A program made the position numbers and the translations under genes. A stretch of 64,000 bases of DNA, taken from assembly GCA_018292915.2 (NCBI GenBank), contig JACVVK020000205.1, positions 835,001 to 899,000 on the forward strand, given 5' to 3'. This DNA comes from Batillaria attramentaria (lineage: Eukaryota; Mollusca; Gastropoda; Batillariidae). Under the pieces are notes generated by a model. It saw nothing but the letters and a program-made list of their open reading frames with translations. It was not told the DNA's origin and did not search any database. Numbering within the stretch: the first letter of the stretch is position 1; the number at the start of each line of letters is the position of its first letter. Positions 5,848 to 38,820 of this stretch are shown here, in pieces.

Positions 5848-8028
5848 TCACTCTTGGCGAGGATTTGACAGAATTTCTTCGATCTGACCTTTGGACACGC
5901 TTCCGTTCTTCAGCAGCATCTTGATAACGTCCAAGGCACCGTATGCGGTGTGGACGGTATTCTGGCTTGTAACGCTGACTCGCATCGTCTGTATCTTGGA
6001 CTCCACGATCTTTTTCATCCGGGCTTCACCTGCCAGCCTCCTGCGCTCCAACATGACGTTCAGGGTGTAGAGAAAAGGGTTGAGGGCGGAGTTCAAAGGC
6101 AGGATGAAGATCACCATGGCAACGTTGACCTCTCCAGGCACAGGGACGCTGTTAGAAGCGAGCAGTCCCAACAGGCCGATGGGAAACCAGCAGAGAAAGT
6201 CCGTCACGGCGATGGTGATCAACCGGCGGGCGATGGTCAGGTCTTTGGATTTTCGGGTGGTGTCTGCACCTCTCATGCTGTTACTGCGAATGGACCAGTA
6301 GATGAAGACCTGTCCTGCGGCGATGAGAACAAAGAGGACGAAGTTGACGACGATCATCACGACGAAGGAATAGTCCTGACCGGGGAAGTCATTCCTAGTG
6401 ATAGGCAGAGGAAGACAGATCCCAGTCTGCCCGTAAAACTGCCAGCCTGACGTCACAGGGAAAAGAGGCGTGGAAGCAAGAACGACCCCTGCGATCCAGG
6501 CAACTGCGCACGCTACCTGCGCAGACCTCTTCTGGAAGTGAAGCTGACTGAAAGGGAAACGGAGCACCAGGAAGCGGTCGAGGGTGATGAGACAGATGAT
6601 GAAGGCCGACACTTCGCTAGACAGCAGCGAGAGGAACCCGGCCGCCTTGCACGCAGCGCTCTCTTTCCACGCGACGTCGTTCCACAGATACGTTCCTTGG
6701 TAGAGTCGGTCCGCAACCCCGATTACCGCAAGGTACACGCCCATCAGGAAGTCGGCCACGCACAGATGGGTCACGAAGACGTCAAAACCAAGACCAGTGG
6801 TCGCTTTTTGAATGAACACCCGATACAAGAAGCTGCCGAAGTTTCCTACCAAAGCTAAGGCGGCAAAAGCAGATAGGAACACCCTGTACACGTCTGAACG
6901 AAGAAGAGCCTCGCACGATGAGATTTCATCAGAAGGAGCCTGACAGTCTGATAAACTAGACCCAGACGGGAGCATGTCTGGGCAACAAAGCTTGTAGTTG
7001 TCAGCGTAGATGATCTCCAGCTCAGTCAAACCGTGGAACAAGCTTTCCTGGAAAAGAGACATGGGACAACCGCGTAGGTCAAGCATTCGAAGTTTCTCCA
7101 GCTTCTGGAAACCGTCGCCAAGGACCTGATTAACGTTACTTCCGGACATGTTCAAGATCCGAAGACTGGGAAACACGGAGAAGAAAGAGGCGTTCAGCTC
7201 GGGCAGATCAGTCAAAGACAAGTCCAGAATCTGAAGGACTGGAAGGCCCTGCTGGAAATCAAGCTCGGTGAAAAGGCGTAAGCCCAGAGGATTTCCTGCG
7301 AGAATCAGCTCCTTCAGATTACCCAAACCCTTAATGTACTGGCCGTTGATACTCGTCAGTAGATTGTCTCTCAGGTCCAACAACCGTAAATTTGGGAGGG
7401 GAGGCACGTCAAACGTGGTAAGATTGCAGTCAGCAAGGATTAATCCTATCAACAACGTGTTATGTCTGAGGTCCAAGGCAGACACATCGACCCCACTGGC
7501 GTCTAGAAAGCGTAGTTCAGGAAAGTCACCAGCATGGAAAGTTTTCTCGCAAGAAAAGCTCTGCCCATCACAAACGCAGTGCTGTGGGCATGTAAAATTG
7601 CACAGCAGTTCGTCATCGTGTTCTGGACACTGGAACACCGCGTCACAGACATCGTCTGGATGTAGGCAGATTTTAGAACCTCTACATCGATAGAGCCCGG
7701 GACACGTGTAGCTGTCACACGCCGCCTCGTCCTCTTTGCCTGGACAGTCGTACACACCGTTGCAGCGCACGTACACCGGCAGGCAATAAAAGATGGTCTG
7801 GCACTGGAAGTGGGTTTCTGGGCAGTAGTTTGACGCGTTTTGATTGATTGGATACCACGAGCTGTCTGGGCGCCAGATATGGAAGCTACCGCGTCCGTCG
7901 AAGGTGATGACGCGTGGTGGCTCCGGCGTCTGGATCTCAACCACGTTGACGAAGGGGATGCACTGTGCTTCGTCTGCACCGTTGACACACTGGGCCATGC
8001 CGTCACATTCCTGGTCCATTGGGAGACA
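5848..8028 (-). CDS. Gene A exon 5: LDLa x3, LRRs, 7TM, stop
   Basis: The acceptor is TTTCTCCACCCAG before 8028. It opens in the middle of an LDLa module (CLPMDQECDG..CVNGADE). Two more follow (CNGVYDCPGKEDEAAC; CDAVFQCPEHDDELLC), then an LRR N-cap (CPQHCVCDGQSFSC), about seven LRRs and the hinge with CCP..C.AP.DEISSC. TM1 has LVGN, TM2 LCVADF, TM3 LITLDRF, TM6 FLCWFPIGLLG and TM7 LNSALNPFLYT. The tail is about 60 residues and ends NPRQE. The TGA stop is at 5850-5848. Confidence 0.93.
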   Translation of the reverse strand, partial: CLPMDQECDGMAQCVNGADEAQCIPFVNVVEIQTPEPPRVITFDGRGSFHIWRPDSSWYPINQNASNYCPETHFQCQTIFYCLPVYVRCNGVYDCPGKEDEAACDSYTCPGLYRCRGSKICLHPDDVCDAVFQCPEHDDELLCNFTCPQHCVCDGQSFSCEKTFHAGDFPELRFLDASGVDVSALDLRHNTLLIGLILADCNLTTFDVPPLPNLRLLDLRDNLLTSINGQYIKGLGNLKELILAGNPLGLRLFTELDFQQGLPVLQILDLSLTDLPELNASFFSVFPSLRILNMSGSNVNQVLGDGFQKLEKLRMLDLRGCPMSLFQESLFHGLTELEIIYADNYKLCCPDMLPSGSSLSDCQAPSDEISSCEALLRSDVYRVFLSAFAALALVGNFGSFLYRVFIQKATTGLGFDVFVTHLCVADFLMGVYLAVIGVADRLYQGTYLWNDVAWKESAACKAAGFLSLLSSEVSAFIICLITLDRFLVLRFPFSQLHFQKRSAQVACAVAWIAGVVLASTPLFPVTSGWQFYGQTGICLPLPITRNDFPGQDYSFVVMIVVNFVLFVLIAAGQVFIYWSIRSNSMRGADTTRKSKDLTIARRLITIAVTDFLCWFPIGLLGLLASNSVPVPGEVNVAMVIFILPLNSALNPFLYTLNVMLERRRLAGEARMKKIVESKIQTMRVSVTSQNTVHTAYGALDVIKMLLKNGSVSKGQIEEILSNPRQE

Positions 8029-11000
8029 CTGGGTGGAGAAACAAATTTCATTCGTAAAAGCCCATGGAAAAATCGGAATCTTCAGACCACTAGAAGCCAC
8101 TTCAAGCCACTATTATGTAATCTGAAGTGGTCTCGGACCAAGTTTGGGAGCAGCAGGTGACGTCAGTGCCCAGGTTGTCTACGTCCGCGGCGTTCTGGTG
8201 AGAGAGTACTTAGGTGTAGTGAAACTACAAAAGACAAGGAGGGTGGGATGGGTGGGGGTTTCCACCACGTACGGGTGATATCAAAGACGGGGCAACGTGA
8301 AAAAGGCCAGCAAGAATATTTGGCCAGGGAACTATGGCATATGCGGTGCCGACAGTAAGATCATCCACATCATGAGATGTGTCATACCAAGGGAAGCACC
8401 CCCAAAGTAGCACCCGTGAAGTGAGTGAATCTCGGCTGTGTGGCAACAGCATCCCCACTGGACACGTATCACACCCGCTCTAGATAGGAGTCGACCTAGG
8501 TAAGTAAAATCCCGCTTGCCTCGGCTGGGATTCGAAACCGGGTCTCCCGTCCCGAAGTGCTAACCACTACACTATGGGGGTCGGTGTCTTTTACGTGTTC
8601 ATACGCGTAAATGGCTGTAAATATTTACGTGTTACAATACCTGTCCGTTACCGCACTGGAATGGCGCGTTGAACGTACAGGCCTGATGAACGCAGAAGTG
8701 TTCGTCACTCGCATCACCACAGTCTGGTCTGTAGTCACACACCAGCGTGAACGGAATTCGCTGCACTCCATTATCGCATTCAAACATTGCCGGGAACGAG
8801 TCCGCCTCACTCTGAAGCGAACACGTGACCGAGGAACCAGACCCACTGGCCCAGCAGGAACTGCGGAAGTCGCACGACAGGAAAGCGTGTGTCACGTGAC
8901 CATCCGGGCATCGAACGACGGAAAGGTCGGTATCCCAGTCTCCTATGGGGGTCACGGATACCCCGGCTGTGGTGGCTTTTTTAGGGGTGCTTTCTGCCTC
9001 GCAGAGAATATGCGCAGTGCGTTTTATATCACATTCTTCCAGATACATGTTGTGGTCATCATCAAACCAGCCGTGTCGGAATGAACCGCAAACTGGTTTT
9101 TGCATTTTTCCTGTGTAGATCTTCATGAAGTAGGCGATTGAGCCGTCGGACCACTGGAATATATGCTGATACCTGGAAAATATTCCAGTGCCTTTGAACA
9201 GAGTTTTTTTTCCCCCAGTATTGTTTTGAAGAAAAGAATAATTCAGGTTCTAGTTTTAACACATTGTGTCCGGCTGAACTACTAAGACTGAATCAGTTGT
9301 TCACCTTCATCATGTTGTTTGTAAGAATGTACTGTGTGTACGTTATGTGTATGTAATGAATGTAAATGTACTTTATGTGTATGTAATATATGTAAGGTGT
9401 AAGTAATATTCTGTTCTTGTAAGGCGCCCAGAGCTCCAGCATGAGGTTGGACGCCCCCCCCCCAAAAAAAAAATAAAAAATATAAAATAAAAAATAAAAA
9501 AAATAAAAATAAAAAAAATAAAAAAAATCCTCATTATTATCATCGTTATTGACCAGAACATGACCTGTATTTGCCTTCCTGCGGTGCAACATTATGTAAC
9601 AAAAATACTGCCAAGACTGAAATGAACGGTACAACTTACATTCGAGGCAAGAAAGGAGCCGAAGATTTTAGTCCCGTAAAAACTCTCACAAAATCTGTCC
9701 TCTTTAGCATCTTCCCCCAAGCCTGCCACTCTTCCGGTGTGTTCAAACTGACCAATCGCATTCCCTGACGGAGGCACGTGACGGCGGCGTCGTTCCAAGA
9801 GATAAGCGCGTCTGGAATGATGCGAAGGTAACATCGGGCGTTGAGTGTTATTTTACCGGGACCACACGTGTCCGTGGTGTAGCTGCAATCCAGCTCGTCC
9901 TCTCCATTGGCGCACTGTGGCTGCAGGTCGCACGGGAAGTGCTGCTTGAAGTCGTCCCAGTATGGCACGGAGCAGTTCCACGTGCCCCCTGGAAGCTTCT
10001 CTGGTTGGGACTGTCCTTTAAATGTTTTTAAGAAAAAAAGTAAGAATGTACATGTGAAATTTAAAAAAGTCAAACACAAAAGGGGGACAAAAGTAGACCA
10101 GCCACTTTTGAGAAAACAACAACAACGACAAAGCATACACTGGTGACAGGTCAAATTAATCGACTTCGAGATTTACGAATATCCTATGTGTGAATAAATA
10201 AATCTCCTACCAGTTCACTCCCCTTAATATCCGACTCTGAAATCGGACGGTTCATTATCGATTCATGTTAAAGGGTGGGTGGGTGGGTGTTTGAGGGTTT
10301 AACGTCCTTTTCCACCCCATACGGGTGATATCAAAGACGGGGCAACGACGAAAAAGCCAGCACAAATATTTGGCCCCAGCCGGGATATCCGTGTTAAAGA
10401 ATTACTGTATAACTCTTGAAGCTTACTGTTTAGCCGCACTAAAAATACTCACAGAAGACCAGCAAAACCGTTAGTTTGAGTAAAAATGATTAAACATAAG
10501 CCTAGAGTGTGGGGTGAGTGGGTATTGGGTGTTTGGGAATTTAAAGTCCTTTTCCACCACCTAAGGGTGATACCAAAGACGGGGCAACGAGAAAAAGGCC
10601 AGCACAAATATTTGGCCCCAGCCACGATTCGAACTCACGACCCGAGCACTGGTGGTACTTGGGAGCATTTTTGTTCAAAATGGCTGAATTGGTAAGAGAA
10701 AAACGGATTGACTAATTGATTGACCGGTTGACTGACTCACGGTCGTGGAAGGAAAACAGAAGACGAAAGCCCGTTCCGGAGTTGAAACTCCAAATGAAAC
10801 TGACGAACCGGACATAGAGGACAGTCGTATTCAGGACTTCCGGAGCTAGAGAGCGTTTCTCGCATATCGTCTTGATGACGTTCCTGTGAGAGTTGCCTCC
10901 CTCGTAAAGCAACAGGCGGTCATCGCGGCACCAGTGGTCGGCCATGATATCCACGTGCGGGAAGCTGATCATGATCACGTGACCTGCGGGGACGTCCAGT

Positions 11001-13339
11001 CGAACCGTACTGTCCATATGAGGTGGGTAGCCGTCGTCAACCCATCTCGGGGTCTCAACAGACCCTGCAAAATTTTGAAAATGAAACGGTATTCCATCGA
11101 GATTCCATTTGAAATGAAATCCTGTCGTATTGAAATGACATCTTGTCGATTTGAAATACTATATCCTTTTGAAATGATATTCTGCCGTTTTCAAATAATA
11201 TTCTATCTGTGAAAAATGCACAGTCAACTCTGTCGCAGCCTGATTTCACAGCCCTGTTTCCGTTTTGACACTGAGCGAGAGAGATCGCACTGGCTAGTCT
11301 TCTCGTGCAGCACACAACACCCGATAGGCGCTGTAGCGATGTGTCTCACTCACTGACCAAAAGCACAATGAAGTCACCGCAAACTAACGCACTGGTTTTA
11401 TAAAGGTCTCCGAGCGCTTAAGGCCTGCATCAGTTGTAGAAGCCGCAGTTAAAAAAAACACAACAACATAAAACAAGGTTTGCGGATTTGTTTTGATTTC
11501 AGCAAAAATCCGCAAAAAATGCGGGTTTTTTTTTCTGTTAAAACTGCGCCTCCTTCGACTGTGCATAATCCAGAGTTTTCAGCGCTTCGGGGACCCATAT
11601 AAAACCAGAGCACGAGTTTGCCGTGACATTATTTGGCTTTTGGTCAGTGAGCGAGACACATCGCTACAGTGTCTAGCGGATGTTGAGTGCTGTACGATCT
11701 TTCTCGCTCAGTGTCAAAACGCAAACTGAGCTGTGAAATCAGGCTGCCCTTGGCTTTTATTGGGGTTTCAGGGACGCTGAAAACTCTGCAGCTGTGACAG
11801 AGTTGACTGTGCTTGCACGGTCGACTCTGTATTTTTTTTCACACTTCGGAAAGCTTTTTCTTGGGAGCTTAAATCTTTAAGGGCATTACCTGCACGGTCT
11901 GAAGTGAAACGAAGTTCCAGCTCAGGCCTCGACGTTTCCGGCACAGCAGTGAAGTTGAGCAGGAACTCAGCAGGGGCGTCAACGTACACCCTCAGCTCAA
12001 TGCGCACGGAGTTCCCGAAGCTGTGGATCGGACCTCTATACCCGTCTTTGCACCCGATGTAACCAGTCACTAAAGTTTTCATGTTAAGCAAATCATACGC
12101 GTCGAAAAAAACAGAATGGCAACCTTCCTCAATCTTTCCCTGCACGATGTCAACGAGAACGACGTTTCCCTTTGGAACTGTGAATATCAGGAGGCATTCT
12201 GCCATGGACTGAAAACTGCCTGTAGTGTTGCTGTGCGGCTCTGAGGCGTAGACAATGGTGAGTCCTGAAGGTGATGTAAGATGTATTGTTTCAGTTGTCG
12301 TGAAACACTGAGTAATGTTCTCGCTCGCGAAGAGAAGATGCCTGTTCGGCAGGTTTTCCCCTTGAGCAGGCGGCCAGCTCATAGAAGATGAATATGTAAG
12401 TCTTGATTCTTCAGAAGTCGAGTATGTAGGTTTTGAGTCTTCAGATGTCGGGAATGTTGGTTCTGATACTTCAGAAGTCGGATATGCAGGTGTTGAATCT
12501 TCAGAAGTCGAATATATAAGTGTTGAGTCTTGTTTTGAGTGTTCAGAAGTTGAGTGTTCAGAAGATATTGTTGGTTTTGAGTTTTCAGAATTCGGATGTG
12601 CAAGTGCTGAGTCTCCAGAAGTCGGATGTGCAAGTGCTGAGTCTTCAGAAGTCGATGACTTTGATTTTGAGTCTTCAGGAGTCGAGTGTGGAGGTGTTGA
12701 GTTTTCAGAAGTCCATAATGTTGGTTTTGAGTCTTCAGAAGTCGATAATGTTGGATTTGAGTCTTCAGAAGTCGATAATGTTGGCTTTAAGTCTTCAGAA
12801 GTCGAGTATGTAGGTGTTGGTTCTTCAGAAGTTGGATATGCAGGTCTTGAGTCTTCAGAGGTCGACAATTTGGGGTTTGATCCTTCAGAAGTCGAGTATG
12901 TAAGTTTAGAGTCTTCAGAAGTCGAATATGCAGGTCTTGAGTTTTCAGAAGTCGAGTATATAGGTGTTGAGTCTTCAGAAGTTGATGATTTCGGGTTTGA
13001 GTCGTCAGAAGTCGAATATGCAGCTGTTGAGTCTTCAGAAGTCGAATTTTGAGGCGTTGTGTCTTCTGCTACGCTGATGATAGATCGTGATGAAACAAAA
13101 CTGCTACTTGCGTCAAGACCTTTGCTGAAAATGCTGTGATTCTTAAACTTGTCATTTGTAGTAAGTAGACTGTTGCCGCCATCAGTGGACGTAGAAGTAG
13201 ATATGAGCTCAGTTTCAGAAACATCAGCCGGTGGTGTGTTATTGAGTATGCTGATGTTGTGTTTTCTGTCATGGGGCCCGCTTAAAGTGTCAGGGAACAC
13301 AAGACTAACACAAAGCGCCACTAGTAATGCCTGTACCAT
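5848..13339 (-). CDS. Gene A: CUB-CTLD-LDLa-LRR 7TM receptor, GRL101/type-C LGR-like
   Basis: This is a predicted plasma-membrane G-protein-coupled receptor of 1620 residues. Exons: 13339-11890, 11064-10741, 10015-9640, 9172-8641 and 8028-5848; frame closes across all four introns (phases 1, 1, 2, 0). Rough domain order: signal peptide 1-20; Ser/Thr-rich stalk with about 20 ten-residue repeats (98-320); CUB-like 1 (335-475); CUB 2 (490-590); LDLa-like (600-635); CTLD (637-775); Cys-rich GHVTHAFLSCD module (800-840); LDLa modules (848-1035); LRR N-cap and LRRs (1040-1240); hinge; 7TM (1275-1560); cytoplasmic tail. The LDLa + LRR + 7TM part matches the known GRL101/relaxin-receptor class. GPCR marks: LDRF in place of DRY, FLCWFP in TM6, NPFLY in TM7. 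It is the most diverged member at TM6-tail and has an extra intron. The ligand and G protein are unknown. Confidence 0.88.
8056..8140. repeat. Half copy of MITE-like family (GCCACTTCAAGCCAC)
   Basis: It shares GCCCATGG..., AGAAGCCACTTCAAGCCACT and AGTGGTCTCG with copies at 17807-18238 and 62185-62405. Only the left half remains. It sits about 30 bp inside the intron next to gene A exon 5. Confidence 0.65.
8238..8330 (-). mobile_element. SINE-1 3' part joined to SINE-2
   Basis: The tail and body of SINE-1 end abruptly at ATATTTGGCCAGGG, directly followed by the 3' part of SINE-2. Either one inserted in the other with later deletion, or this is a chimaeric retrotransposition product. Confidence 0.75.
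8331..8583 (-). mobile_element. SINE-2 copy in gene A intron 4
   Basis: On the minus strand the head reads GACCCCCATAGTGTAGTGG and the box-B-like part GGTTTCGAATCCC. The body contains GGTCGACTCC and GTGTGGCAACAGC (as its complement), as in the 13.7 and 51.0 kb copies. It is truncated at the 3' end. Confidence 0.85.
8641..9172 (-). CDS. Gene A exon 4: CTLD end, Cys-rich module, LDLa
   Basis: The acceptor is TTTTCCAG before 9172 and the donor is GGACAG|GTATTG at 8641/8640. It finishes the CTLD (FQWSDGSIAYF.., last cysteines in EECDI...AHILCE). Then come the module CPDGHVTHAFLSCDFRSSCW, a full LDLa (FECDNGVQRIPFTLVCDYR..DC.DASDE..C) and the first half of the next LDLa. It ends in phase 0. Confidence 0.9.
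9296..9455 (+). repeat. Dispersed repeat family 5
   Basis: It ends in TTGTAAGGCGCCCAGAGCTCC..GACGCC, like 30050-30172 (TTGTAAGGCGCCCTGAGCTCC..GGCGTCCC). The 160 bp are in gene A intron 3. An A-rich AAATA tract follows to about 9528. The 3' end resembles retroposon tails, but no head is recognised. Confidence 0.5.
9640..10015 (-). CDS. Gene A exon 3: LDLa-like module and first half of CTLD
   Basis: The acceptor is CATTTAAAG before 10015 and the donor is CGAAT|GTAAGT at 9640/9639. It encodes GGTWNCSVPYWDDFKQHF..C...CANGEDELDC, a four-cysteine LDLa-like module, then CGPGKITLNARCY..WNDAAVTCLRQGMRLVSLNTPEEW, the N-terminal half of a C-type lectin-like fold. In genes B-D this exon is fused to the CUB 2 exon. 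Confidence 0.88.
10273..10386 (-). mobile_element. SINE-1, head missing
   Basis: The tail and body of SINE-1 on the minus strand stop at CCAGCCGGGATA, so the tRNA head is missing. It lies in gene A intron 2. Confidence 0.8.
10509..10650 (-). mobile_element. SINE-1, partial head
   Basis: The tail, body and box-B half of the head (AACTCACGACCCGAGCACT complement) are present. It stops before box A. It lies in gene A intron 2, 120 bp right of the previous copy. Confidence 0.8.
10741..11064 (-). CDS. Gene A exon 2: CUB domain 2
   Basis: The acceptor is ATTTTGCAG before 11064 and the donor is CACGACC|GTGAGT at 10741/10740. It encodes SVETPRWVDDGYPPHMDSTV, then a CUB core with CRDDRLLLYEGG, a second Cys, and FNSGTGFRLLFSFHD. 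CUB domains bind proteins or glycans outside the cell. Only A has an intron directly after this domain. Confidence 0.85.
11214..11818. mobile_element. About 600-bp foldback element in gene A intron 1
   Basis: The left arm (GCACAGTCAACTCTGTC at 11218, CCTGATTTCACAGC, TTGACACTGAGCGAGA, TAGCGATGTGTCTC, CTGACCAAAAGC at 11353) is repeated in inverted order on the right. There, GCTTTTGGTCAG starts at 11636 and GACAGAGTTGACTGTGC at 11796. Pairing continues inwards past a GGTTTTATAAA / ATATAAAACC pair to a centre near 11500. The right arm carries about 30 extra bases. No transposase is inside, so it is probably a non-autonomous foldback or MITE-type transposon. Confidence 0.85.
11890..13339 (-). CDS. 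Gene A exon 1: signal peptide, mucin-like stalk, CUB-like 1
   Basis: The ATG is at 13339-13337, followed by a hydrophobic signal peptide (MVQALLVALCVSLVFPDTLS). The stalk is Ser/Thr/Asp-rich with NxT/S sites. The repeat block STSEDS.P.Y covers 12370-13045. The CUB-like domain begins near ENITQCF and ends NFTAVPETSRPELELRFTS. The donor is GCAG|GTAATG at 11890/11889, phase 1, at the same place as in B, C and D. Confidence 0.88.
12370..13045 (-). repeat. 30-bp coding tandem repeat in gene A
   Basis: About 20 imperfect copies of a 30-bp unit encode ten residues (S-T-S-E-D-S-x-P-x-Y). Changes are mostly at the residues after the SEDS core. The block is Ser/Thr-rich and so probably O-glycosylated and extended. 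B, C and D lack it. Confidence 0.92.
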
Positions 13340-13995: not shown

Positions 13996-15435
<1,440 letters not shown>

Positions 15436-15601
15436 AAGGGTGGGTGGGTGTTTGGGGGTTTAACGTCCTTTTCCACCACATACAGGTGATATCAAAGACG
15501 GGGCAACGATGAAAAAGCAACCACAAATATTTGGCCCCAGCCGGGATACAAACTCGCGACCCAAGCATTAGAAGTCCAACGCTCGGCCACCCCGGCTCCC
15601 C
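15436..15601 (-). mobile_element. SINE-1 copy 3' of gene B
   Basis: Tail, body and head on the minus strand; box A is partly deleted (GCTCGGCCACC). The flanks ACAAACCTGAA / ACAAAACTGAA suggest a target duplication with one change. Confidence 0.85.
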
Positions 15602-20700: not shown

Positions 20701-21643
20701 AAAAAACAGGAACAAGTTGAGAATCAAACACAAGTCTGATGCATCAATGCAAGCAACTGAGGCTCGAAACAACAACAACAGCAACAACAAAACAAGAAGA
20801 GAACTTACAACAGTGGTAGTGTTGGGCTTGCTGGCTGCAGACCAAGAAAAACATCCAACTTCTGCTTCTCCAGCAGCTCAATCACATTTCTCCATTCCTC
20901 CGGAGTGTTCAGACTCGCTAAGACACCTCCATGTACCAGGCACTGTTTGGACGCCTCCTCCCACGTGATAAACTCCTCCAGTCTCATAAATATGTAGCAG
21001 CCCTTGCCCACAGCTATCCGTCCCAGTCCACAGACGTCAGTGGTGTAGGGACAGTCCGCCTCGTCCTCAATCCCAACACACTCTTGGTTCAGGTTACACA
21101 GGAAGTGCTGCCGGAAGTCAGCCCAGTACGGCACGGAGCAGTTCCACTTGCCGTCCGGTAGTCTTAGTGGAAGCGCAGACTGGTTGTGGAAAGAGAAAAG
21201 AAGCCTGAAGCCAGTGTGAGATCTAGACGAAACTCCACCCAGAAGCCGTACTTGAATGAACATCACGTCAGTGTCAAACAAGGTGGGTGGAGGGTATTCT
21301 GTTCTACAAGCCCACCACACATTGTTGTTCAAGGAAGGTCCGTGTCTGTACACTCTCACGAAGTCGCTACAATGGCTGAAATGTTGCGTGTAAAACCCGA
21401 AGACATCAAGACTCGGGAAGCTCAGCATGACAGAATTGTTCTCGGGAATGTCAAGCCGCACCCAGCTGTTGATGGGGGTCGGGTGAGGGGTGACTCCATC
21501 GAATCCTGGTGTCTGTATATATCCTGGAACGTACCCAAAGCGTTTGAGGCAAACTGTTAAAAAAAAAAAAATGTAGTGTTTGGCACGAGAGTATTTTTTC
21601 TGGTCTCCTCTCGGCCGTACAACACAGTTGCTGATTACGTATT

Positions 21644-27598: not shown

Positions 27599-29867
27599 AC
27601 ACACGAACAACAAGTAACCGACAGAAACAAACACAGATCAATAATTATTCTAAGTGCATAATTTGTGTTAGGTGTGTTTGTGGTTTGTGGAAACACTTAA
27701 CTCATTTTTGTCACACCATACGTGATACAAGACACAAAACAACCAAAAGAACAACAAACAAACAAAAAATCGAAAAGCAGCAGCAACAACAAAAACAAAC
27801 AAACAAACAAAAAACAAAAAAACCTAACAAACAAAGAACAACATCAACAACAACAATATGATCATAACAACAACAAAAAATACAATAATTACAGTTGTCT
27901 TCAATACCTGCTGATTGCCGCATTTAAACGTCCCGATGACGTCACACGGCGGGTAGACACAGAAGTCTTCATCACTGGCGTCCCGACAGTCAGCTCGATG
28001 ATCACACACCAACGTGTACGGCACGTGCTCAACGCCGTCAGCGCACGTGAACGACGGCGGAAGTGGGGTCAGCGGAGCCGCACAGACGTCACGTGATCCT
28101 CGATCTTGACCCCAGCACTTACTCTCCTCATCGCAAGCTAGGAAGCTGTGCGTCACGTGACCTGCCGGGCAGAGCACGTGCGACACATTCCAGACCTGGG
28201 CAGTAGAGTTTGTTAACTGAACAGTGGGTGCGTTTTCAGTCGTAACTGGTACAGTTTGCTCTTCAGGGAGAGCGTCCGCTTCACACAGGATGTGGGTTTG
28301 ACGATTTAGGCGTCTGATATCACAAGGTTGGATGGATAGAGTGGCAAAACCCTCGACGTTGAAGGAGTAATCGGGACGGAAATATCCGCACTCCGCATCG
28401 CTCACGTCGCCAGTTATGACGTTCAGGAAGTAGGCGATAGTTCCGTCCGACCATTGCCACGTGTCTTGATACCTGTATAATAAAATGCTGACGAGGTAAG
28501 ATTCTGAAACTAGGAAAAAAAATACCCGTAAGTACCTTTACTTCTCTCTTTGCCTTTGGACCTCTCTATCTCTCCGAATCATCTCATTAGTATAATTAAT
28601 AATTATACAAAGCCCTGTTTTAAGTCTACTTGAGACCGAAAACCCCATTTTTTGCTGTTGTCAATTATATGCTTCAGGTGTCATGGATTTGTCGATAACG
28701 TCATTTTGACCCCAAGGAAACAAACTTTTACACTATTATTGTTAGAGTTTTCTCTTCATCAAGATTTAAAAATAATTTCTCTTGACCTTTCTCTTTTTTG
28801 TGTCTTTCAGGAAACCGTTTGAGCCTAAAACGCGCACAACAGTATTGTGTTTTATCTGTCTGATATTGCACCGTTAAAGTCCCAAACACCCTCCCTTGCT
28901 TTTTATGTGTTCACTAAAATCTTCGTTTTTGAAAATCCATTGTCCACAAGCAAAATTGTGAAGAAACACAGACTTTAATCATCCACACTAGAAAAATCTA
29001 GGAGCTTGTTATTTGTGGTTTAACGCCGAGCAGGAAAAAAACCCACCAACAACAAACAAAACAAAACAATACCCAGACCGTTTCGCGGCTCTTGGGATAA
29101 TCTAGGAAGATTTTTTCAAGGAATTATAAGGCTACTTACAAGAGAGGTAGCACTGGATTTGCAGCTCGGAGTCCAACAAAAACGTTCAGCCCTGTCGTCT
29201 GCAGCAGTGACGTCACTTCCTGCCATTCATCGGGAGTTCTCAGACTCGCCAAATACGCTCCGCTAAGCAGACACTCGTTGGAAGCGTCATCCCACGTGAT
29301 TATAGCGTCATCCTCAAGCATCATGAATATGTAGCAGCCGCTGCCCACAGAGATCCGTCCCGGACCACAGAGGTCAGTGGTGTAGGGACAGTCCGCCTCG
29401 TCCTCCATCCCAGCACACTCTTGGTTTAGGTTACACAGGAAGTGCTGCCGGAAGTCAGCCCAGTACGGCACGGAGCAGTTCCACTTGCCGCCCGCCAGTC
29501 TAACTGGAATAGCGGACTGGTTGTGGAAGGAAAAGATCAACTTGAAGCCAGAATAGGTGTCACCATCGTCAGAAAAAAAACGTACGAAGAAAACGTCTGT
29601 GTCATACAAAGCAGGACCGGGTCGATAACCCCGACAGGCCTTCCACACCAGGTGTTCCGAGGAGTTGCCTCCTGTGTACAACGCCACATTCTGAAAGGAG
29701 CACCACTTGGTTGATCCTCCGACATCAACGTGACGCAGACTGATCATGACCACGTGACTCGCTGGAACATCCACCCGTGCCCAGCTGTCCATGTTGTTCG
29801 GGTATTTTGTCTCGCCGTCCCATCCCGGTGTCTGAATGAACCCTGTGGGGAAGGACAAAGAAACACA

Positions 29868-29989: not shown

Positions 29990-30029
<40 letters not shown>

Positions 30030-31123
30030 GCCTGGGACAGCTGAGCCGTGTATGATGCTGCACATTATGTTTGTAGTTAAATGTTTGTGTGAAGGCATGT
30101 TGTGTTTCTTGGCGAGTGAGTGTGTGTTGATTGTAAGGCGCCCTGAGCTCCTGTGGGAGGGAGGGCGTCCCTTAAATATTATTATTATTATTATGATGAT
30201 GATGATGAATAAAATGCTTCTAAAAGCCTCTAATGACTTCAACCGTACTGCTCGGCGAAAACGTTTAGCAATAATTTAAAAGCAAAAAGCAAAAATATAC
30301 AGTCAAAAACTACTTGGACAATACGCCCTTTCATTCTGGAGTTAGCTTTCTGTGTTCAGAAAGAGTCTTTCGCGTACCTTTTTCATTTGCGAAATAATGT
30401 TAGTGCTTTTAATTAAGATTAACAAGAAAACGTACCGTTTGTAGAAGATGTGTAGTGCAGTTCTGTCTGCGGTAACTCGGACTCAGGAATTGCCGTAAAC
30501 GTCAGTCGGAAAAGACAGGAATGGCCAGTGTTGTAAGAAATTTTTATTTCAACGGCATTACTGTAGCTTGTGAAAGGTGCCACCGGGTACCCGAACTGTC
30601 CAAATACCCTCTGTATCGTAGACTGTCTCTCAATGTCGGACACCGTCAGCAGAAATGAGCCTTGTGTGCATCTGCCTTCCAGTTGGTTGATCTGCAGCTT
30701 GACCACCATATCCTCTTCAACGAAAAGTTCAAGGCCACATTCACCACTAGGTCTGATCTCCTCGTCTGTTTCATTTTTAACGTACGAGATTTCACCCGAA
30801 GTCATACGGTAACTTTGTATGCTGTCACTTTTGGCGCACCTCTTGATATCATCTGTTGTTATGACCTGATAATCACCGTCCTGTTGATGGCTACCGTCCT
30901 GTTTCACTGGGTCAGTTTCCTTCAGTGCAGGCTCGCTGAGTGTTATATCGTTTGATATCGGCACTATTGGACTGGGTTGTTTAGTCGGAAACTCAGATGT
31001 TGTAAGGTCTCTAAAAATGTTCTTTTCAGTGGTGCCTGAGACGGCATTTAACAAAACTATTGCAACCAAGACAGCAAATCGCCATCTTTGAAGGCTGTAT
31101 GTGCAGTTTCCTTCACGTGCCAT
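25415..31123 (-). CDS. Gene C: CUB-CUB-CTLD-LDLa-LRR 7TM receptor
   Basis: A receptor of the same class, about 1338 residues. Exons: 31123-30436, 29842-29140, 28472-27908 and 27475-25415 (phases 1, 2, 0). Domain order: signal peptide (about 1-32, W-R-F-A-V-L-V-A-I-V core); acidic Ser/Thr stalk; CUB-like 1 (about 100-220); CUB 2 (230-335); LDLa-like (345-378); CTLD (380-520); GHVTHSFLACD module; LDLa modules (550-800); LRRs (825-1000); hinge; 7TM (1040-1315); tail ending GTSSVG. GPCR marks: GN in TM1, LCVSDFLMG in TM2, LITLDRF, FLCWFP, NPFLYT. It shares long near-identical stretches with B at LDLa and TM5-TM7. The start of D lies 2.5 kb away in the other direction, so the two may share regulatory DNA. 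Confidence 0.9.
27552..27597. repeat. (CA)n microsatellite in gene C intron 3
   Basis: About 22 CA units. An A/C-rich stretch follows at about 27730-27890, beside the exon 3 donor. Confidence 0.95.
27908..28472 (-). CDS. Gene C exon 3: CTLD end, Cys-rich module, LDLa
   Basis: The acceptor is TTATACAG before 28472 and the donor is CAGCAG|GTATTG at 27908/27907. It encodes YQDTWQWSDGTIAYFLNV.., the CTLD end (CDIRRLNRQTHILCE), a linker, CPAGHVTHSFLACDEESKCW, LDLa (FTCADGVEHVPYTLVCDHR.DC.DASDE..C) and the next LDLa half (FKCGNQQ). Confidence 0.92.
28473..29139. other. Gene C intron 2
   Basis: It has GT..AG borders. The sequence is AT-rich and unique-looking, with no mobile element recognised. 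Confidence 0.6.
29140..29842 (-). CDS. Gene C exon 2: CUB 2, LDLa-like, CTLD first half
   Basis: The acceptor is TCCCCACAG before 29842 and the donor is CTCTT|GTAAGT at 29140/29139. It encodes GFIQTPGWDGETKYPNNMDS, the CUB core (CSFQNVALYTGGNSS.., YSGFKLIFSFHNQSA), LDLa-like module (WNCSVPYWADFRQHFLCNLN..CAGMEDEADC) and CTLD start (CGPGRISVGSGCYIFM...LRTPDEW). Confidence 0.92.
29872..30210. repeat. Repeats in gene C intron 1, including family 5 copy
   Basis: (AAT)n at about 29872-29911, (TG)n at 29994-30025, a family-5 repeat at about 30050-30172 (ends GTAAGGCGCCCTGAGCTCC, like 9.4 kb), then (ATT)n and (ATG)n to 30210. Confidence 0.8.
30436..31123 (-). CDS. Gene C exon 1: signal peptide, stalk, CUB-like 1
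   Basis: The ATG is at 31123-31121. It is followed by MAREGNCTYSLQRWR, then a hydrophobic core and cleavage near AVSGTT. The stalk has NxT/S and Pro. CUB-like 1 holds CAKSDSIQ.., SGECGLELFVEEDMVV and ends RLTFTAIPESELPQTELHYT. The donor is AACG|GTACGT at 30436/30435, phase 1. Confidence 0.88.
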
Positions 31124-31863: not shown

Positions 31864-31920
<57 letters not shown>

Positions 31921-32368: not shown

Positions 32369-32541
32369 GGTGGGGTGGGTGTTAGGGGGTTTAACGTGCT
32401 TTTCCACCACATACGGATGATATCAAAGACGGGGCATCGATGAAAACGCCAGCACAAATATTTGGCCCCAGCCGGGATACGAACTCACGACCCGAGCATT
32501 GGAAGTCCAACGCTCTACCATTCGGCCAACCCCGGCTCCCC
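32369..32541 (-). mobile_element. SINE-1 between genes C and D
   Basis: Full-length SINE-1 on the minus strand. GATGAAGACTTCAG occurs at 32355-32368 and 32542-32555, a perfect 14-bp target duplication. Confidence 0.95.
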
Positions 32542-33672: not shown

Positions 33673-34369
33673 ATGGGAGGAAAGGGATACGTTTGTAAAA
33701 CTGTTCTCGTGATTTCCCTTCTACTGCAATCTACGTTGGTGGGTTGTGTTACGAACAGTGGCCTCAACGCGCCAGGCGTTCTTCATCAAACTACAGTCCC
33801 ATTGACAGACAACGTAAAGAACTCAAACCCACCGGACCCAGGTACCACAACAATTTTCACTGAAGCTTTCTCAACATCACCGTCGGTAGAGGAATCTTCC
33901 ACAACTCCAGTGGACTCCAACGACCATCTGTTTGTCTCACCAGAAAACGTCACAGAATGCTTGACAGAAAGTTTCATTCTTCGATACGAATCTTCATCTG
34001 GCATTGTTCTGTATACATCAAATGGCTCCAGCAATTCCGCCTCGAGCGGGTTCTGCCAGATAGAAGTCACAGTACCTAAAGGCCTGGTGGTCAAAGTCCA
34101 CGTTCTAGAACTGACTGGAGAGTGCGCATGTGGAAGTAATGACGACTTTAATCTGTATGTTATCGACGGAGACGATTTCGCTGGAATTCATCACACCACG
34201 GGTTGTCCTGACGATGAAAACGATGGTCCGTATTTTACCTTTACCGGAGTGGTCGAGTTTTGGATAGAAGCGGATTTGAACCTAGACTGTACCATGCGGG
34301 TAAACTTTACCGCTGTACCACCATCGGCAAGGCCACAAATACAGGTGCAATTCACTTCGCAAAACGCAG
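33673..34369 (+). CDS. Gene D exon 1: signal peptide, stalk, CUB-like 1
   Basis: ATG at 33673. An in-frame ATG further left (33541) would put a basic stretch before the signal peptide and is less likely. CUB-like 1 runs from ENVTECLTESFILRYESSSG to MRVNFTAVPPSARPQIQVQF. The donor is GCAG|GTACAT at 34369/34370, phase 1. Confidence 0.88.
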
Positions 34370-35739
34370 GTACATTATTCTAAGTTCTGTTTATTTGCCT
34401 CGTTTGTTCATCATTTCACTGAACTGAACTGTTTCATTTAATTTCATATTGTTTTTCACGTTTTACAATAATAATAATAATAATAATTATTATTAATAAT
34501 TATTATTATGCAATTGAAGAAAGATGATATTCGAGTCATTCAAGTCAAATTGTGTCTATTCGTAGGTGACATCACTACACCCGACTGGGACGGCAAGAAA
34601 AAGTACCCGCACAACATGGACAGCTGGGTACGGGTAGACGTGCCGGAGGGTCACGTGGTCATGATCAGTTTCCGTCATATGGACGTCGACAATTTCATCA
34701 ACGACTGTAGAAATGATATGGTCACTCTGTACGCTGGAGGCAATTCGTCCGCTGATAAAGTTTGGTCGGCATGTCGAGCGTTCTACCCAAACCCAGCTGT
34801 CTTGAAGACTGACGAATTCTTTGTACATTTTATTTCGGACGAGTCTGGAAGGTACACTGGCTTCCGACTGTCGTTTTCATTCCACAACCAATCTGCGCTT
34901 CCAGAAAAGCTACCGGACGGCAAGTGGAACTGCTCCGTCCCGTACTGGGCTGACTTCCGGCAGCACTTCCTGTGCAACCTAAACCAAGAGTGTGCTGGGA
35001 TGGAGGACGAGGCGGACTGTCCCTACACCACCGACGTCTGTGGACTGGGACGGATCTCTGTGGGCAGCGGCTGTTACATATTCATGAGGCTGGAGGGGAG
35101 TGTCACGTGGGACGGTGCGTCAGATGCTTGTCTGCTTCGTGGAGCCCATCTTGTCAGCCTGAACACGCCAGAAGAATGGCTGGCAATATCGCAGTTTCTG
35201 AAGACACTGAAATTCCATGTTTTCACTGGACTTCGCACCGTCAACCCAATCTTGCCTCTTTTGTGAGTATCGGTTTTTCGTTATCTTTATCTTGATCACT
35301 CAGTATCGTTACTGACTTCAACCGCTAAGATAACAGAAAGCACAACAACAACAACAACAGAAATAATGATGTCTTTGGCTATTCCCGAACAAACCCGAAA
35401 GTGTAGAAAACAATGTTAAATGTATTACGAGGCTTTATCAACACGAGGGCTGGCAGAATTTCAGATTGCTGCGAGAATATTCTTTTAGCCCCATGGATTC
35501 CTGGAATCTCATGATTACCCATATTAAATGCAGGTCCATCCACAGGCAACAGAAGTGTTCCCAATCATGTATCAACAAGATGTTCTAGTCATGTTAAAAT
35601 TGACGATTCCAATCACACTTGTGTAACGTGTTTAATACATTCTCATTCAAGACGGATATGAGAAAAAAACCCATTAGATTCCCCCCCCCCCCGGAAAAAA
35701 CAACAACAACAACAACAAAAATGCAAAACGCACACGCAC

Positions 35740-35777
<38 letters not shown>

Positions 35778-38700
35778 CGCTAGTGCTTTATTAAAGATGC
35801 CGAACAGATTACCAGAACAAGTGATCGAGGTATGATTGCAGGTACCAAGACACGTGGCAATGGGCCGATGAAACCATCGCCTACTTCTACAACATCCGGT
35901 CGGGCTACAACAGCGACTGCAGCATCTTTCGCCCAGACACGGTGTACGTCGACGGCAGAGTGAGGCTGCTGATGACCGGCTGTAGCAGTTCTCGTCAGGG
36001 AAACATTCTGTGCGAAGTTGACTCGCGCCGTAGCCGAGACTTTACGAGGGAGTCTGAGATACACCTTGAGCCACACGGAACGTGGACAGCGGGCGTGTCT
36101 CACGTGCAGTGTCCATCCGGTCACGTGACTCACGAGTTCCTGGCGTGTGACGTCAAGTCTGCGTGCTGGAAACGAGGCTACGGAGCCTCTGCCGAATGTC
36201 TCGCTTCTCTGACGCCACTTCCGCCGTCGTTCACGTGCGCTGACGGCGTTGAGCACGTGCCGTACACTTTAGTGTGTGATCACCGCGCTGACTGCCGGGA
36301 CGCCAGTGATGAAGACTTCTGTGTCTACCCGCCCTGTGCCTACATCGGGCAGTTCCAGTGTGGAGATCAGCAGGTAGTCAAGTGTTAGTTTCCAGATCAT
36401 TCTGTTGCGTGTAAATGAGTCATTGTATTTTGGAAAACTATTACCATTAATACTGGGGATAATTAAATTTCAAATTTGCTCGGTTTAGCCATCAATAATT
36501 ATTATATCATTTATATTTTAGAATGGTAAACACACGAGGGGTCAGTGGGAATGCAGATCATAACACTGACGTATTTACGCCAAGAATTTATTGATTTCAT
36601 ATAAAAAATAAGAACGATTCGCTTTGCGCACAAGAGCCTTGTCTAGTATTTCTAGTGAAGCTTGTATTTTACTGTAAAAAAATTTATAATGCGACTCTTC
36701 TAGTATTAGTTCGCTATAAGTACGAGTTTTGTGATTCCTGTATCTGATTGAAATATTTTGTGTTTTCCTAGTGTGTGCCCCAAGATAAGCGATGTGACGG
36801 CATGGAGCATTGCGCCAATGGTGCAGACGAGAAGAAATGCTTTCTGGGTCGGTTCAGTACCAGGCCCGTCTACAGAGTATTGCCGCCTGCACTGGCAGAC
36901 TCTGACGGACGTGGTGACTTCACATTAACACCGCTAGACAGTGCTAACTCTTCATGCCCAGCGACCCACTTCCAGTGTCCAGGCGACGGTTACTGCCTGC
37001 CGGTGTTCGTGCGCTGTAACGGTGTGTACGACTGTCCGGGCAAAGAGGACGAGGCGGCGTGTGACAGCTACACGTGTCCCGGCTTCTACCGCTGTCGGGA
37101 TTCTCGCGTCTGTTTACATTCGGATCATCTGTGTGACGGCGTGTTCCAGTGTCCGCAGCAGGACGACGAGTTGCTGTGTGAGGCGGAATGTCCCGTGAAC
37201 TGCACGTGCTACGGCCGGGCGTTTTTCTGTGTCAGTAACTTTACCGCGCGGAACTACACTGACCTGCGTTATCTGGACGCACGAGGCAGCGGGATGTCAC
37301 TTTGGGATGTGTCCGAAAACAGAATGTTAGTCTATCTGAGTCTAGCACAGTGTGGTCTGACAGAACTAGACAACATCAAACTACAGAACCTCCACGGTCT
37401 GGATCTCAGTGACAATCACCTCACCACGATATCCGTCGACTTTCTGATCAATTTCTCTCGTCTAGAGTATCTCAACATTGTTGGTAATCCCATCAAAAAA
37501 TTGTTTACGAGAACATCCAGCCATGAGCCATTCTCACTGCGTGTGAAGACAATGGATCTGTCCAGAGTTGTAATGCAGGAAATAACTCCAGATCTTTTCA
37601 AACCATTTCCAGAGTTGCAGTCCCTGAACTTGTCTGATGCTGGTGTTGACTACGCGGTTGGAAACATCTTTGAATCATTGAAGCAGCTCCGTGTACTGGA
37701 CCTAACAGGATGCCCGTTTACTGAATTCCCAAGAGGCGTTTTTAACGGTCTTGATCAACTGGATGAAGTGTACGCCGACAACTACAAGCTGTGTTGCCCG
37801 GCCACGCTGCCCGCGGGCTTCAACTTGCCTCAGTGTCGCGCCCCGACTGACGAGATCTCGTCCTGTGACGCCCTGCTCCGGTCTGACGTGTACCGTGTGT
37901 ATGTGTCCGTCCTCTCAGCTTTGGCTCTCACTGGCAATGCGGCCAGTTTCGTGTATCGAGTCTTTATCAAGACGTCCACAGCCTGTCGAGGTTACAGCGT
38001 GTTCATGACACATCTCCACGTGTCAGATTTCCTCAAGGGTCTTTACCTGGCGTTGATGGCCGTTGCTGACCGCATGTTTTACGGGAGTTACCTGTGGAAC
38101 GACCTGTCATGGAGAAACAGCGCAGGGTGTAAAGTGGCCGGCTTCTTGTCTCTGTTGTCCACCGAGGTCTCCTCCTTCTTTCTCTTTCTGATCACCGTGG
38201 ATCGTGTTCTTGCTCTATACTTTCCCTCCACTGTCATACAGTTTCAAAGAAAGTCCGCAAGTGTGGCATGTGGAATTGTTTGGGTTCTTGGTTTCATTCT
38301 GGCTATCGTTCCGCTGTTTCCAGTCACTCCACACTGGCAGTTCTACGGCAAAACCGCCATCTGCACCCCTTTTCCGATCAGCCACGAAACATTCCCGGGC
38401 AGCGGTTATAATTTCGCTGTAGTCATGGTCCTCAACTTTGTTCTATTCTCGTTGATGGCGATGGGCCAAGTCTTAATTTTCTGGTCCACCCGCTCTGAGA
38501 TTACGTCGGTGTCCAACTCAACAATCAAGTCAAAGGATCGTGTGGTTGGAAACAGATTCTTCACTGTTGTAATGTCCAGTTTCCTGTGCTGGTTCCCCAT
38601 CGGCTTGCTGGGAGTGCTGGCCGCCAATGACGTGGTGATTCCTGGTGAGGTCAGCGTTGCCATGGCGATCATCGTGCTGCCGCTGAACTCGGCGCTGAAC

Positions 38701-38820
38701 CCGTTCCTGTACACCGTCAACATGATACTGGAGCGGAGACGTCAAGCCATGGAGCGGCGGATTGAGAAAAGGGTGTTGTCCAAGCTTCAAGCCAAAACCA
38801 CGACCACTACGTCCAAGTGA
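33673..38820 (+). CDS. Gene D: CUB-CUB-CTLD-LDLa-LRR 7TM receptor, inverted copy
   Basis: A receptor of the same class on the plus strand, about 1324 residues. Exons: 33673-34369, 34566-35262, 35842-36373 and 36772-38820 (phases 1, 2, 0). The start at 33673 gives a signal peptide (VLVISLLLQSTLVG core). Domain order: Thr/Ser stalk to about 90; CUB-like 1 (95-225); CUB 2 (235-335); LDLa-like (345-378); CTLD (380-510); GHVTHEFLACD module; LDLa modules (555-780); LRRs (803-988); hinge; 7TM (1020-1297); Thr-rich tail (TTTTTSK). TM1-TM6 is the most diverged: LTVDRVLALYFPS replaces LITLDRFLVLRFPF, TM2 has LHVSDFLKG, and loop 3 has KSKDRVVGNRFF for KSKDLTIARRLF. FLCWFP and NPFLYT are kept. The C-terminus closely matches fragment E. 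Confidence 0.9.
34566..35262 (+). CDS. Gene D exon 2: CUB 2, LDLa-like, CTLD first half
   Basis: The acceptor is CTATTCGTAG before 34566 and the donor is CTTTT|GTGAGT at 35262/35263. It encodes DITTPDWDGKKKYPHNMDSW, CUB core (CRNDMVTLYAGGNSS.., TGFRLSFSFHNQSA), LDLa-like (WNCSVPYWADFRQHFLCNLN..CAGMEDEADC), CTLD start (CGLGRISVGSGCYIFM..WDGASDACLLRGAHLVSL). Confidence 0.93.
35263..35841. other. Gene D intron 2
   Basis: It has GT..AG borders. It contains (CAA)n tracts, a C run near 35680 and (CA)n at about 35727-35775, but no SINE. Confidence 0.7.
35842..36373 (+). CDS. Gene D exon 3: CTLD end, Cys-rich module, LDLa
   Basis: The acceptor is GATTGCAG before 35842 and the donor is CAGCAG|GTAGTC at 36373/36374. 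It encodes YQDTWQWADETIAYFYNI.., CTLD end (TGCSSSRQGNILCE), CPSGHVTHEFLACDVKSACW, LDLa (FTCADGVEHVPYTLVCDHR.DC.DASDE..C), and the half LDLa FQCGDQQ. Confidence 0.93.
36772..38820 (+). CDS. Gene D exon 4: LDLa x3, LRRs, 7TM, stop
   Basis: The acceptor is GTTTTCCTAG before 36772. It encodes CVPQDKRCDGMEHCANGADE, CNGVYDCPGKEDEAAC, CDGVFQCPQQDDELLC, N-cap CPVNCTCYGRAFFC, LRRs (LDLSDNHLTTISVDFL..; LNLSDAGVDYAV), hinge NYKLCCP..CRAPTDEISSC and 7TM. TGA at 38818-38820. Confidence 0.94.
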   Translation, partial: CVPQDKRCDGMEHCANGADEKKCFLGRFSTRPVYRVLPPALADSDGRGDFTLTPLDSANSSCPATHFQCPGDGYCLPVFVRCNGVYDCPGKEDEAACDSYTCPGFYRCRDSRVCLHSDHLCDGVFQCPQQDDELLCEAECPVNCTCYGRAFFCVSNFTARNYTDLRYLDARGSGMSLWDVSENRMLVYLSLAQCGLTELDNIKLQNLHGLDLSDNHLTTISVDFLINFSRLEYLNIVGNPIKKLFTRTSSHEPFSLRVKTMDLSRVVMQEITPDLFKPFPELQSLNLSDAGVDYAVGNIFESLKQLRVLDLTGCPFTEFPRGVFNGLDQLDEVYADNYKLCCPATLPAGFNLPQCRAPTDEISSCDALLRSDVYRVYVSVLSALALTGNAASFVYRVFIKTSTACRGYSVFMTHLHVSDFLKGLYLALMAVADRMFYGSYLWNDLSWRNSAGCKVAGFLSLLSTEVSSFFLFLITVDRVLALYFPSTVIQFQRKSASVACGIVWVLGFILAIVPLFPVTPHWQFYGKTAICTPFPISHETFPGSGYNFAVVMVLNFVLFSLMAMGQVLIFWSTRSEITSVSNSTIKSKDRVVGNRFFTVVMSSFLCWFPIGLLGVLAANDVVIPGEVSVAMAIIVLPLNSALNPFLYTVNMILERRRQAMERRIEKRVLSKLQAKTTTTTSK

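Follow-up and report, generated by a model that had tools for sequence, protein, structure and literature searches.

The window analysed here is a stretch of 64,000 nucleotides (contig JACVVK020000205.1, positions 835,001 to 899,000) that contains no N. Four complete paralogous receptor genes lie within positions 5848-38820, A, B and C on the minus strand and D on the plus strand, and a fifth paralogue, gene E, reaches into the window at its far end (Table 1). The five genes are read as a cluster of GRL101-like, i.e., type-C or relaxin-receptor-type, leucine-rich repeat-containing G protein-coupled receptors (LGRs) in a gastropod, most likely a caenogastropod. Gene models were derived from stop-to-stop frames and inspection of splice sites, with the start set at the first methionine of exon 1, and signal peptides were called by eye. 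All 13 introns of A-D have GT-AG borders and each spliced gene forms a single open frame. The intron phases are equal at homologous junctions (1 after exon 1, 2 within the C-type-lectin-like domain (CTLD) and 0 within the third LDLa domain), and gene A has one phase-1 intron more than B-D, located at the end of its second CUB domain. In total, the introns of a gene comprise 1173-2680 bases, with gene D at 1173. Gene E shares 93-95% nucleotide identity with B, C and D over 207-242 bases, and tblastn revealed no further copy in the window. The four complete genes of the first-pass annotation were thus found again, and the one further piece is a gene truncated by the window edge and not a decayed fragment.

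The domain order of the proteins (1222-1620 residues) is CUB-LDLa-CTLD-Cys-rich segment-four LDLa-leucine-rich repeats (LRR)-hinge-seven-transmembrane domain (7TM), and 905-1268 residues precede the 7TM in A-D. The latter is of class A and keeps the CWFP and NPFLY motifs. Of the domain plan proposed in the first-pass annotation, Pfam recovered 7tm_1 (E-values down to 3.8e-27), Ldl_recept_a and LRR (LRR_8/LRR_4) above cut-off in all four proteins, the second CUB in A, C and D (30.0, 36.5 and 47.3 bits versus a gathering score of 21.4) and Lectin_C only in B and D (23.2 vs. 22.6 bits); no CUB row was obtained for gene B. Profiles seeded with A-D detect the second CUB and the CTLD across homologues. 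Five LDLa domains are found in A, C and D by the family profile and also in the alignment of A-D.

By its predicted fold, the first domain of gene D is a CUB domain as well, of which pair Pfam detects the second only: the AlphaFold2 model has a pLDDT (predicted confidence) of 85 and the best Foldseek and VIA-align rows are CUB structures. This first CUB is matched by the extracellular structure 6v55 of another G protein-coupled receptor (GPCR), GPR126/ADGRG6, which is an adhesion GPCR. The mark of that class (GAIN/GPS) was not among the Pfam families found at E 0.1 in any of the four proteins. In gene B, the signal-peptide-like start is followed by a Ser/Thr-rich stretch up to the end of exon 1. 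Gene B has no first CUB, which contradicts the earlier claim that every gene carries two CUB domains in one order. An extra feature of gene A is a stalk preceding the first CUB, a mucin-like spacer of about 20 Ser/Thr-rich TSEDS-type repeats (22 by a loose pattern), each of about 10 residues, which is lacking in B, C and D.

Using exon 4 of gene D as query, the closest solved sequence relative is RXFP1 (PDB 7tmw, E 8.8e-59), followed by TSHR (2.1e-25). The alignment with RXFP1 comprises the LRR, the type-C hinge and the 7TM (residues 204-650 of the exon product), and the hinge pattern is present in all four genes. RXFP1 shares the LRR, type-C hinge and 7TM with the window genes and also has an LDLa domain. 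It contains one LDLa and is not known to have a CUB or a CTLD. For the homologue P0003 from Pomacea canaliculata, which is named GRL101-like at NCBI, a structural model (pLDDT 85.7) retrieved LGRs in all of the top 35 Foldseek rows; some other homologues are also named GRL101-like or relaxin receptor 2-like. The proteins of the cluster display a class-A 7TM nearest to the relaxin receptors, LRR with a Cys-rich hinge and several LDLa, and the gap in E-value between RXFP1 and TSHR supports the type-C LGR-like core noted before. LDLa domains are described as a mark of type-C LGRs (PMC11863921), and GRL101 has been classified as a type C2 LGR (PMC8286064).

In all four genes, the CTLD spans an exon junction (exons 2 and 3; exons 3 and 4 in A), and so does the third LDLa, which begins in the second of these exons and is completed in the 7TM exon. 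Since an intron splits each of these domains, both are whole only if the exons are joined. A homologue search yielded 298 proteins at E 0.001, the best 120 of which, ranked by similarity to gene D, were analysed with profiles from A-D iterated on this set. Here, the second CUB, CTLD, LRR and 7TM are united in one protein in 82 of the 120; singly, the 7TM is present in 120, the CTLD in 98, the second CUB in 85 and the first CUB in 33, numbers which are not family frequencies because of the ranking by similarity to gene D. Two homologues carry complete open reading frames (ORFs) on short contigs, P0067 with 1453 residues on 4749 bases (387 bases spare) and P0090 with 1422 residues on 4902 bases (633 spare). 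Since the spare bases are fewer than the introns of any window gene, both are probably transcripts. These contigs and the domain halves flanking the introns uphold the first-pass view of a single protein rather than an annotation fusion. P0007, P0010 and P0018 (contigs of 5515-5691 bases) were considered as transcript evidence too and dropped, as introns of the short length seen in gene D would fit into their 1273-1554 spare bases.

A second search with residues 89-530 of gene D gave 14 matches. Among the matches listed from both searches (best 120 of 298, and 14), the named sources are five caenogastropod species only, many proteins being unnamed, and no Biomphalaria protein is among the named ones. 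One automatic model from Nucella lapillus, P0128, combines von Willebrand A domains with the same CUB-LDLa-CTLD ectodomain on a contig with the same base count as the contigs of the receptor models P0001 and P0105; either a fusion of gene models or a genuine exchange of domains could explain it.

C-type lectins that bind sugars in a calcium-dependent manner are defined by an EPN or QPD motif together with WND. An EPN/QPD-like motif was found in none of the four window genes and in 3 of the 102 CTLDs examined. W[NSD]D is present in the second half of 17 of the 102, in two of them together with an EPN/QPD-like motif; the WSD of genes A-C lies within WSDG and not at the end of the CTLD. Because the CTLD is devoid of the canonical sugar-binding motif in all four genes, these data speak little for the glycan sensing suggested in the first-pass annotation. 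Pathogen sensing is possible by analogy with a resistance-linked cluster of Biomphalaria.

Genes B, C and D form a mosaic of homogenised and diverged segments. Synonymous divergence (dS) among them exceeds 1 or is not computable over the second CUB, the whole CTLD, the third LDLa, the linker, the LRR and transmembrane helices (TM) 1-5, with the exception of the exon-2 half of the CTLD in B-C (0.78) and the Cys-rich segment (0.62-0.89). Across LDLa1, LDLa2, LDLa4-5, the hinge and TM6-7, dS is 0.03-0.50, and the island cores show still lower values. On 4-fold degenerate codons, these five segments emerge in each of the three pairs. Identity at these sites, for which 0.25 is expected by chance, is 15/18, 18/21 and 15/19 in LDLa1 (B-C, B-D and C-D, respectively), 18/21, 19/21 and 18/21 in LDLa2, 15/18, 14/17 and 17/17 in LDLa4-5, 18/21, 19/22 and 21/21 in the hinge and 33/33, 25/30 and 25/30 in TM6-7, compared to 116/242, 82/207 and 100/243 outside the islands; the B-C tract in TM6-7 begins earlier, at residue 1195 of D, and is partly counted as outside. 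Among 5000 shuffles, 0, 2 and 0 equalled the longest identical runs (61, 21 and 25 sites), and 0, 12 and 15 attained the best-segment scores. The island borders do not match exon ends. Gene E takes part at TM6-7 (34/37 with B, 32/35 with C, 33/37 with D and 10/25 with A).

Gene A behaves differently. Its 4-fold identity with B, C and D is 1/15 each in the hinge, 8/22, 9/23 and 9/21 in TM6-7, 6/12, 6/14 and 4/13 in LDLa1 and 4/8, 4/8 and 3/8 in LDLa2, and only LDLa4-5 is an exception with 12/15 to each. The GC content at 4-fold sites is raised in the islands of B (91/119), C (97/121) and D (90/116), i.e., 0.76-0.80, versus 210/405, 248/428 and 232/419 outside (0.52-0.58; Fisher p 1.6e-06, 6.3e-06 and 1.0e-05, tests that are not mutually independent). 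For gene A, the values are 63/105 (0.60) and 247/432 (0.57; p 0.66). This pattern in the sequences points to recurrent short-tract, GC-biased gene conversion among B, C and D.

As a cross-species control, 98 of the 120 homologues with CTLD, LRR and 7TM and less than 1900 residues were used. The amino acid identity of the islands in B-C, B-D and C-D is 0.96, 0.90 and 0.88, in comparison to a mean of 0.604 (sd 0.047, maximum 0.745) in 818 non-window pairs of similar block identity, and the three pairs rank 1-3 of 5151 for the excess of island over block identity. Homogenisation as a family-wide trait was rejected, since the excess within other species is no higher than between species: the means are 0.152 in Nucella, 0.156 in Littorina and 0.144 in Batillaria versus 0.157 between species, and the single Pomacea pair (0.25) lies below the between-species maximum of 0.28. 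Homogenisation is therefore claimed for B, C and D only, and for E at TM6-7.

Two further candidates were dropped. Cassette shuffling between paralogues had been suggested by FastTree block trees, in which the TM1-5 block of gene D groups with proteins of Nucella and Babylonia (support 0.76), the other blocks being placed elsewhere. Quick IQ-TREE trees with approximately unbiased (AU) tests on 42 hand-picked rows of 102 (37 for the CTLD) rejected neither a B-C-D nor an A-B-C-D clade (p 0.49 and 0.581 for TM1-5, 0.704 and 0.577 for the LRR), and the CTLD tree already separates either clade from all other rows by a single branch (support 95 and 72). Due to these tests, cassette shuffling was abandoned. 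Positive selection on the binding blocks was dropped as well, because silent sites there are mostly saturated and dN/dS has little power.

The closest known system, the SudRes2 region of Biomphalaria sudanica, was associated with schistosome resistance in 2025. Of its 14 genes, 10 encode GRL101-like proteins with C-type lectin (CTL), LDL, LRR and 7TM domains and two more are incomplete (PMC12297450). RNA aligned to 11 of these 12 genes, six genes outside the region are annotated with GRL101, CTL and LDL domains, and the N-terminal CTL is termed unique to the SudRes2 genes (PMC12297450). SudRes2 thus resembles the window in being a paralogue cluster with an N-terminal C-type-lectin-like domain, class A LDL, LRR and 7TM, all joined in one protein; in contrast, the word CUB does not occur in the main text of that paper. 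GRL101 of Lymnaea stagnalis also has several LDLa, LRR and a class-A 7TM; it differs in its LDLa and LRR numbers (twelve and six, respectively), and neither CUB nor CTLD is mentioned in the text available, whereas the window genes have five LDLa together with CUB and CTLD (PMC8286064, PMC12297450). Type-C LGRs of Nematostella and Trichoplax share the type-C hinge and the LDL and CUB domains; they are cnidarian and placozoan, contain fibronectin type II in addition, and C-type lectins are never mentioned in the available text (PMC9545775). The assumption that CUB and CTLD lie outside the known LGR plans is not supported, given SudRes2, the Nematostella and Trichoplax receptors and the 82 homologues. 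Proteins combining the Pfam families CUB, Lectin_C, LDLa, LRR and 7tm_1 are already present in databases, either without a name or labelled "hypothetical", such as P0008 from Nucella and P0062 from Littorina. A description of all five domain types in one protein was not found in the literature searched, which covered few subscription journals and no supplements, nor in the available text of PMC6267866, PMC8286064, PMC4079206, PMC11863921, PMC9545775, PMC11521371 and PMC12297450. The same literature yielded no report of island homogenisation in such receptors. The window receptors are thus a variant of a known snail receptor family, with the CUB-CTLD union and the island homogenisation as the parts not found there.

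Mechanistically, each gene would encode a single GPCR at the cell surface, composed of a signal-peptide-like start, one or two CUB domains, an LDLa, a non-canonical CTLD, a Cys-rich segment, four LDLa, LRRs, hinge and 7TM. The distal CUB and CTLD modules may capture a macromolecular ligand, probably a protein or particle and not a calcium-held sugar, a step which by itself is put at somewhat below an even chance. The LDLa-LRR-hinge unit would pass on or unmask the signal of the ligand to the 7TM, as in RXFP1, and the 7TM would signal via a G protein, where Gs as for RXFP1 is a guess. Gene conversion would keep LDLa1, LDLa2, LDLa4-5, the hinge and TM6-7 near-identical among B, C and D, with the recognition blocks staying diverged.

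Anatomy, family and mosaic are considered likely as described for the cluster. Several observations weigh against this. Lectin_C stays below cut-off in A (16.8 bits) and C (19.0 bits), and RXFP1, the chain of which is shorter, ranks 35th by structure for P0003, below other LGRs. Of the 14 matches of the N-terminal search, ten (8 Batillaria, 1 Pomacea and 1 Nucella, several of them marked partial) have no 7TM match, three a partial and one a full one; P0130 ends where the 7TM exon would be joined, and P0126 continues past this junction. The missing 7TM matches would fit two separate genes merged by the splicing model, one for a secreted protein with CUB and CTLD and one, downstream, for an LDLa-LRR-7TM receptor. 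However, the split CTLD and third LDLa mean that both parts need the junctions, both parts are present in the 82 homologues, and P0067 and P0090 hold both on contigs too short for such introns, so that separate genes appear highly improbable. The matches without 7TM are read as broken automatic models, and ectodomain-only soluble products may exist besides. For the mosaic, segments with a score of at least 6 occur in nearly all shuffles and only the best island was tested singly; the weaker islands rest on their recurrence at equal positions in mutually dependent pairs. The islands were chosen after the data had been seen, which makes the amino acid contrast with other species partly circular, an excess of this size was not seen in the pairs tested within four other named species, and the AU tests are compatible with both a B-C-D and an A-B-C-D clade for the blocks. 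Silent-site constraint or an assembly or polishing artefact, instead of gene conversion, might also produce identical islands: they sit on conserved protein segments in a single assembly, and the window holds a tandem duplication of 99.7% identity that is possibly an assembly artefact. Against this, gene A also possesses these segments, but at silent sites it resembles B, C and D little there (LDLa4-5 excepted) and its GC is not raised. Polishing, moreover, would not be expected to homogenise paralogues with differences at roughly half or more of the surrounding silent sites. Constraint or artefact is thus judged quite improbable.

Regarding function, an immune-receptor-like array of particle- or parasite-sensing LGRs, in which ongoing GC-biased conversion recopies the five islands and CUB, CTLD, LRR and TM1-5 are kept apart as recognition modules, is on balance unlikely in this full form. 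A special case of the main reading given above, immune or parasite-recognition receptors equivalent to the GRL101-like cluster of SudRes2, is doubtful but well conceivable. The CTL-LDL-LRR-7TM plan and the clustering correspond to the resistance-associated region (PMC12297450), and the binding blocks are diverged on a homogenised framework. On the other hand, the variant validated in B. sudanica lies in a neighbouring Zn-RING-IAP gene and not in a GRL101 gene (PMC12297450), dN/dS is below 1 in all computable domain rows except the first CUB of B-D (1.36, without a real alignment as B has no such domain), and many dS values are saturated. Alternatively, the genes might encode hormone receptors binding an insulin/IGF/relaxin-like peptide (IGF, insulin-like growth factor) at the LRRs, with the N-terminal modules as accessories for co-receptors or matrix anchoring. 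The core is nearest to RXFP1 by sequence, an IGF has been proposed as the ligand of GRL101 (PMC8286064) and insulin-like ligands have been suggested for type-C LGRs (PMC4079206). Yet the LRRs are among the diverged blocks (dN 0.42-0.53 in B-C, B-D and C-D), and at least 28 Littorina saxatilis and 17 Nucella lapillus proteins among the best 120 of 298 contrast with the single GRL101 orthologue reported per ambulacrarian species (PMC8286064). A hormone receptor is considered rather unlikely.

Since many proteins from several caenogastropods contain the CTLD together with CUB domains, the plan probably predates B. sudanica and extends beyond it. Homogenisation of the framework only is a testable mark, to be searched for in any long-read snail genome, of the way in which such arrays could retain a common signalling core and diversify their binding parts.

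Table 1. Genes, exons, homogenised islands and other features of the window (positions of the 64,000-nucleotide stretch).
Feature	Position	Strand	Content
Gene A	13339 to 5848	-	five exons, 1620 aa
A exon 1	11890..13339	-	signal-peptide-like start, long Ser/Thr-rich repeat stalk (about 13040-12370), CUB1 (12328-11921)
A exon 2	10741..11064	-	most of CUB2
A exon 3	9640..10015	-	CUB2 end, LDLa1, N-terminal half of CTLD; bounded by the extra intron vs. B-D
A exon 4	8641..9172	-	C-terminal half of CTLD, Cys-rich segment, LDLa2, first half of LDLa3
A exon 5	5848..8028	-	remainder of LDLa3, LDLa4-5, LRR, hinge, 7TM, stop
Gene B	22060 to 15712	-	four exons, 1222 aa
B exon 1	21730..22060	-	signal-peptide-like start, short Ser/Thr-rich linker; no CUB1
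B exon 2	20809..21523	-	CUB2, LDLa1, N-terminal half of CTLD
B exon 3	18796..19366	-	C-terminal half of CTLD, Cys-rich segment, LDLa2, half of LDLa3
B exon 4	15712..17763	-	remainder of LDLa3, LDLa4-5, LRR, hinge, 7TM, stop
Gene C	31123 to 25415	-	four exons, 1338 aa
C exon 1	30436..31123	-	signal-peptide-like start, CUB1 (30859-30467)
C exon 2	29140..29842	-	CUB2, LDLa1, N-terminal half of CTLD
C exon 3	27908..28472	-	C-terminal half of CTLD, Cys-rich segment, LDLa2, half of LDLa3
C exon 4	25415..27475	-	remainder of LDLa3, LDLa4-5, LRR, hinge, 7TM, stop
Gene D	33673 to 38820	+	four exons, 1324 aa
D exon 1	33673..34369	+	signal-peptide-like start, CUB1 (33937-34338; CUB fold by AlphaFold2 and structure search)
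D exon 2	34566..35262	+	CUB2, LDLa1, N-terminal half of CTLD
D exon 3	35842..36373	+	C-terminal half of CTLD, Cys-rich segment, LDLa2, half of LDLa3
D exon 4	36772..38820	+	remainder of LDLa3, LDLa4-5, LRR, hinge, 7TM, stop
Gene E (fifth paralogue)	63738..63998	-	7TM C-terminus, cut at window end
Island I1 (LDLa1)	D 34901..35053; B 21170-21018; C 29507-29355	D +
Island I2 (LDLa2)	D 36197..36325; B 18972-18844; C 28084-27956	D +
Island I3 (LDLa4-5)	D 36985..37101; B 17550-17434; C 27256-27140	D +
Island I4 (hinge)	D 37759..37881; B 16779-16657; C 26482-26360	D +
Island I5 (TM6-TM7)	D 38563..38721; B 15975-15817; C 25678-25520	D +	common to gene E
Exon-like ORF	811-1176	-	Na+/K+-ATPase beta chain match
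Tandem duplication	45703-47497 and 47497-49292		adjoining copies
SINE-like repeat, sites 1-6	1518-1689, 5061-5238, 10272-10387, 15437-15584, 17858-18036, 32367-32541
SINE-like repeat, sites 7-11	43010-43178, 46012-46194, 47806-47989, 51882-52050, 61513-61680		two within the tandem duplication
Related repeats	13725-13992, 8324-8585, 51007-51299		two overlap tRNA-like matches
tRNA-like match	51224-51295	-
tRNA-like match	13729-13800	+
Retroelement fragment	53520-53978	+	reverse transcriptase

Outside the receptor genes, an exon-like ORF matches the beta chain of the Na+/K+-ATPase (Pfam E 2.6e-07) and is probably one exon of a neighbouring gene. The adjoining tandem copies, each of about 1.8 kb, represent either a recent duplication or an assembly artefact. 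A dispersed repeat of about 110-180 bp resembling a short interspersed nuclear element (SINE) is found at no fewer than 11 sites on both strands, with about 86-97% identity where aligned. Since the tRNA-like matches overlap related repeats, they are perhaps tRNA-derived elements rather than tRNA genes. The reverse-transcriptase fragment of a retroelement was detected by Pfam RVT_1 (E 9.6e-08).

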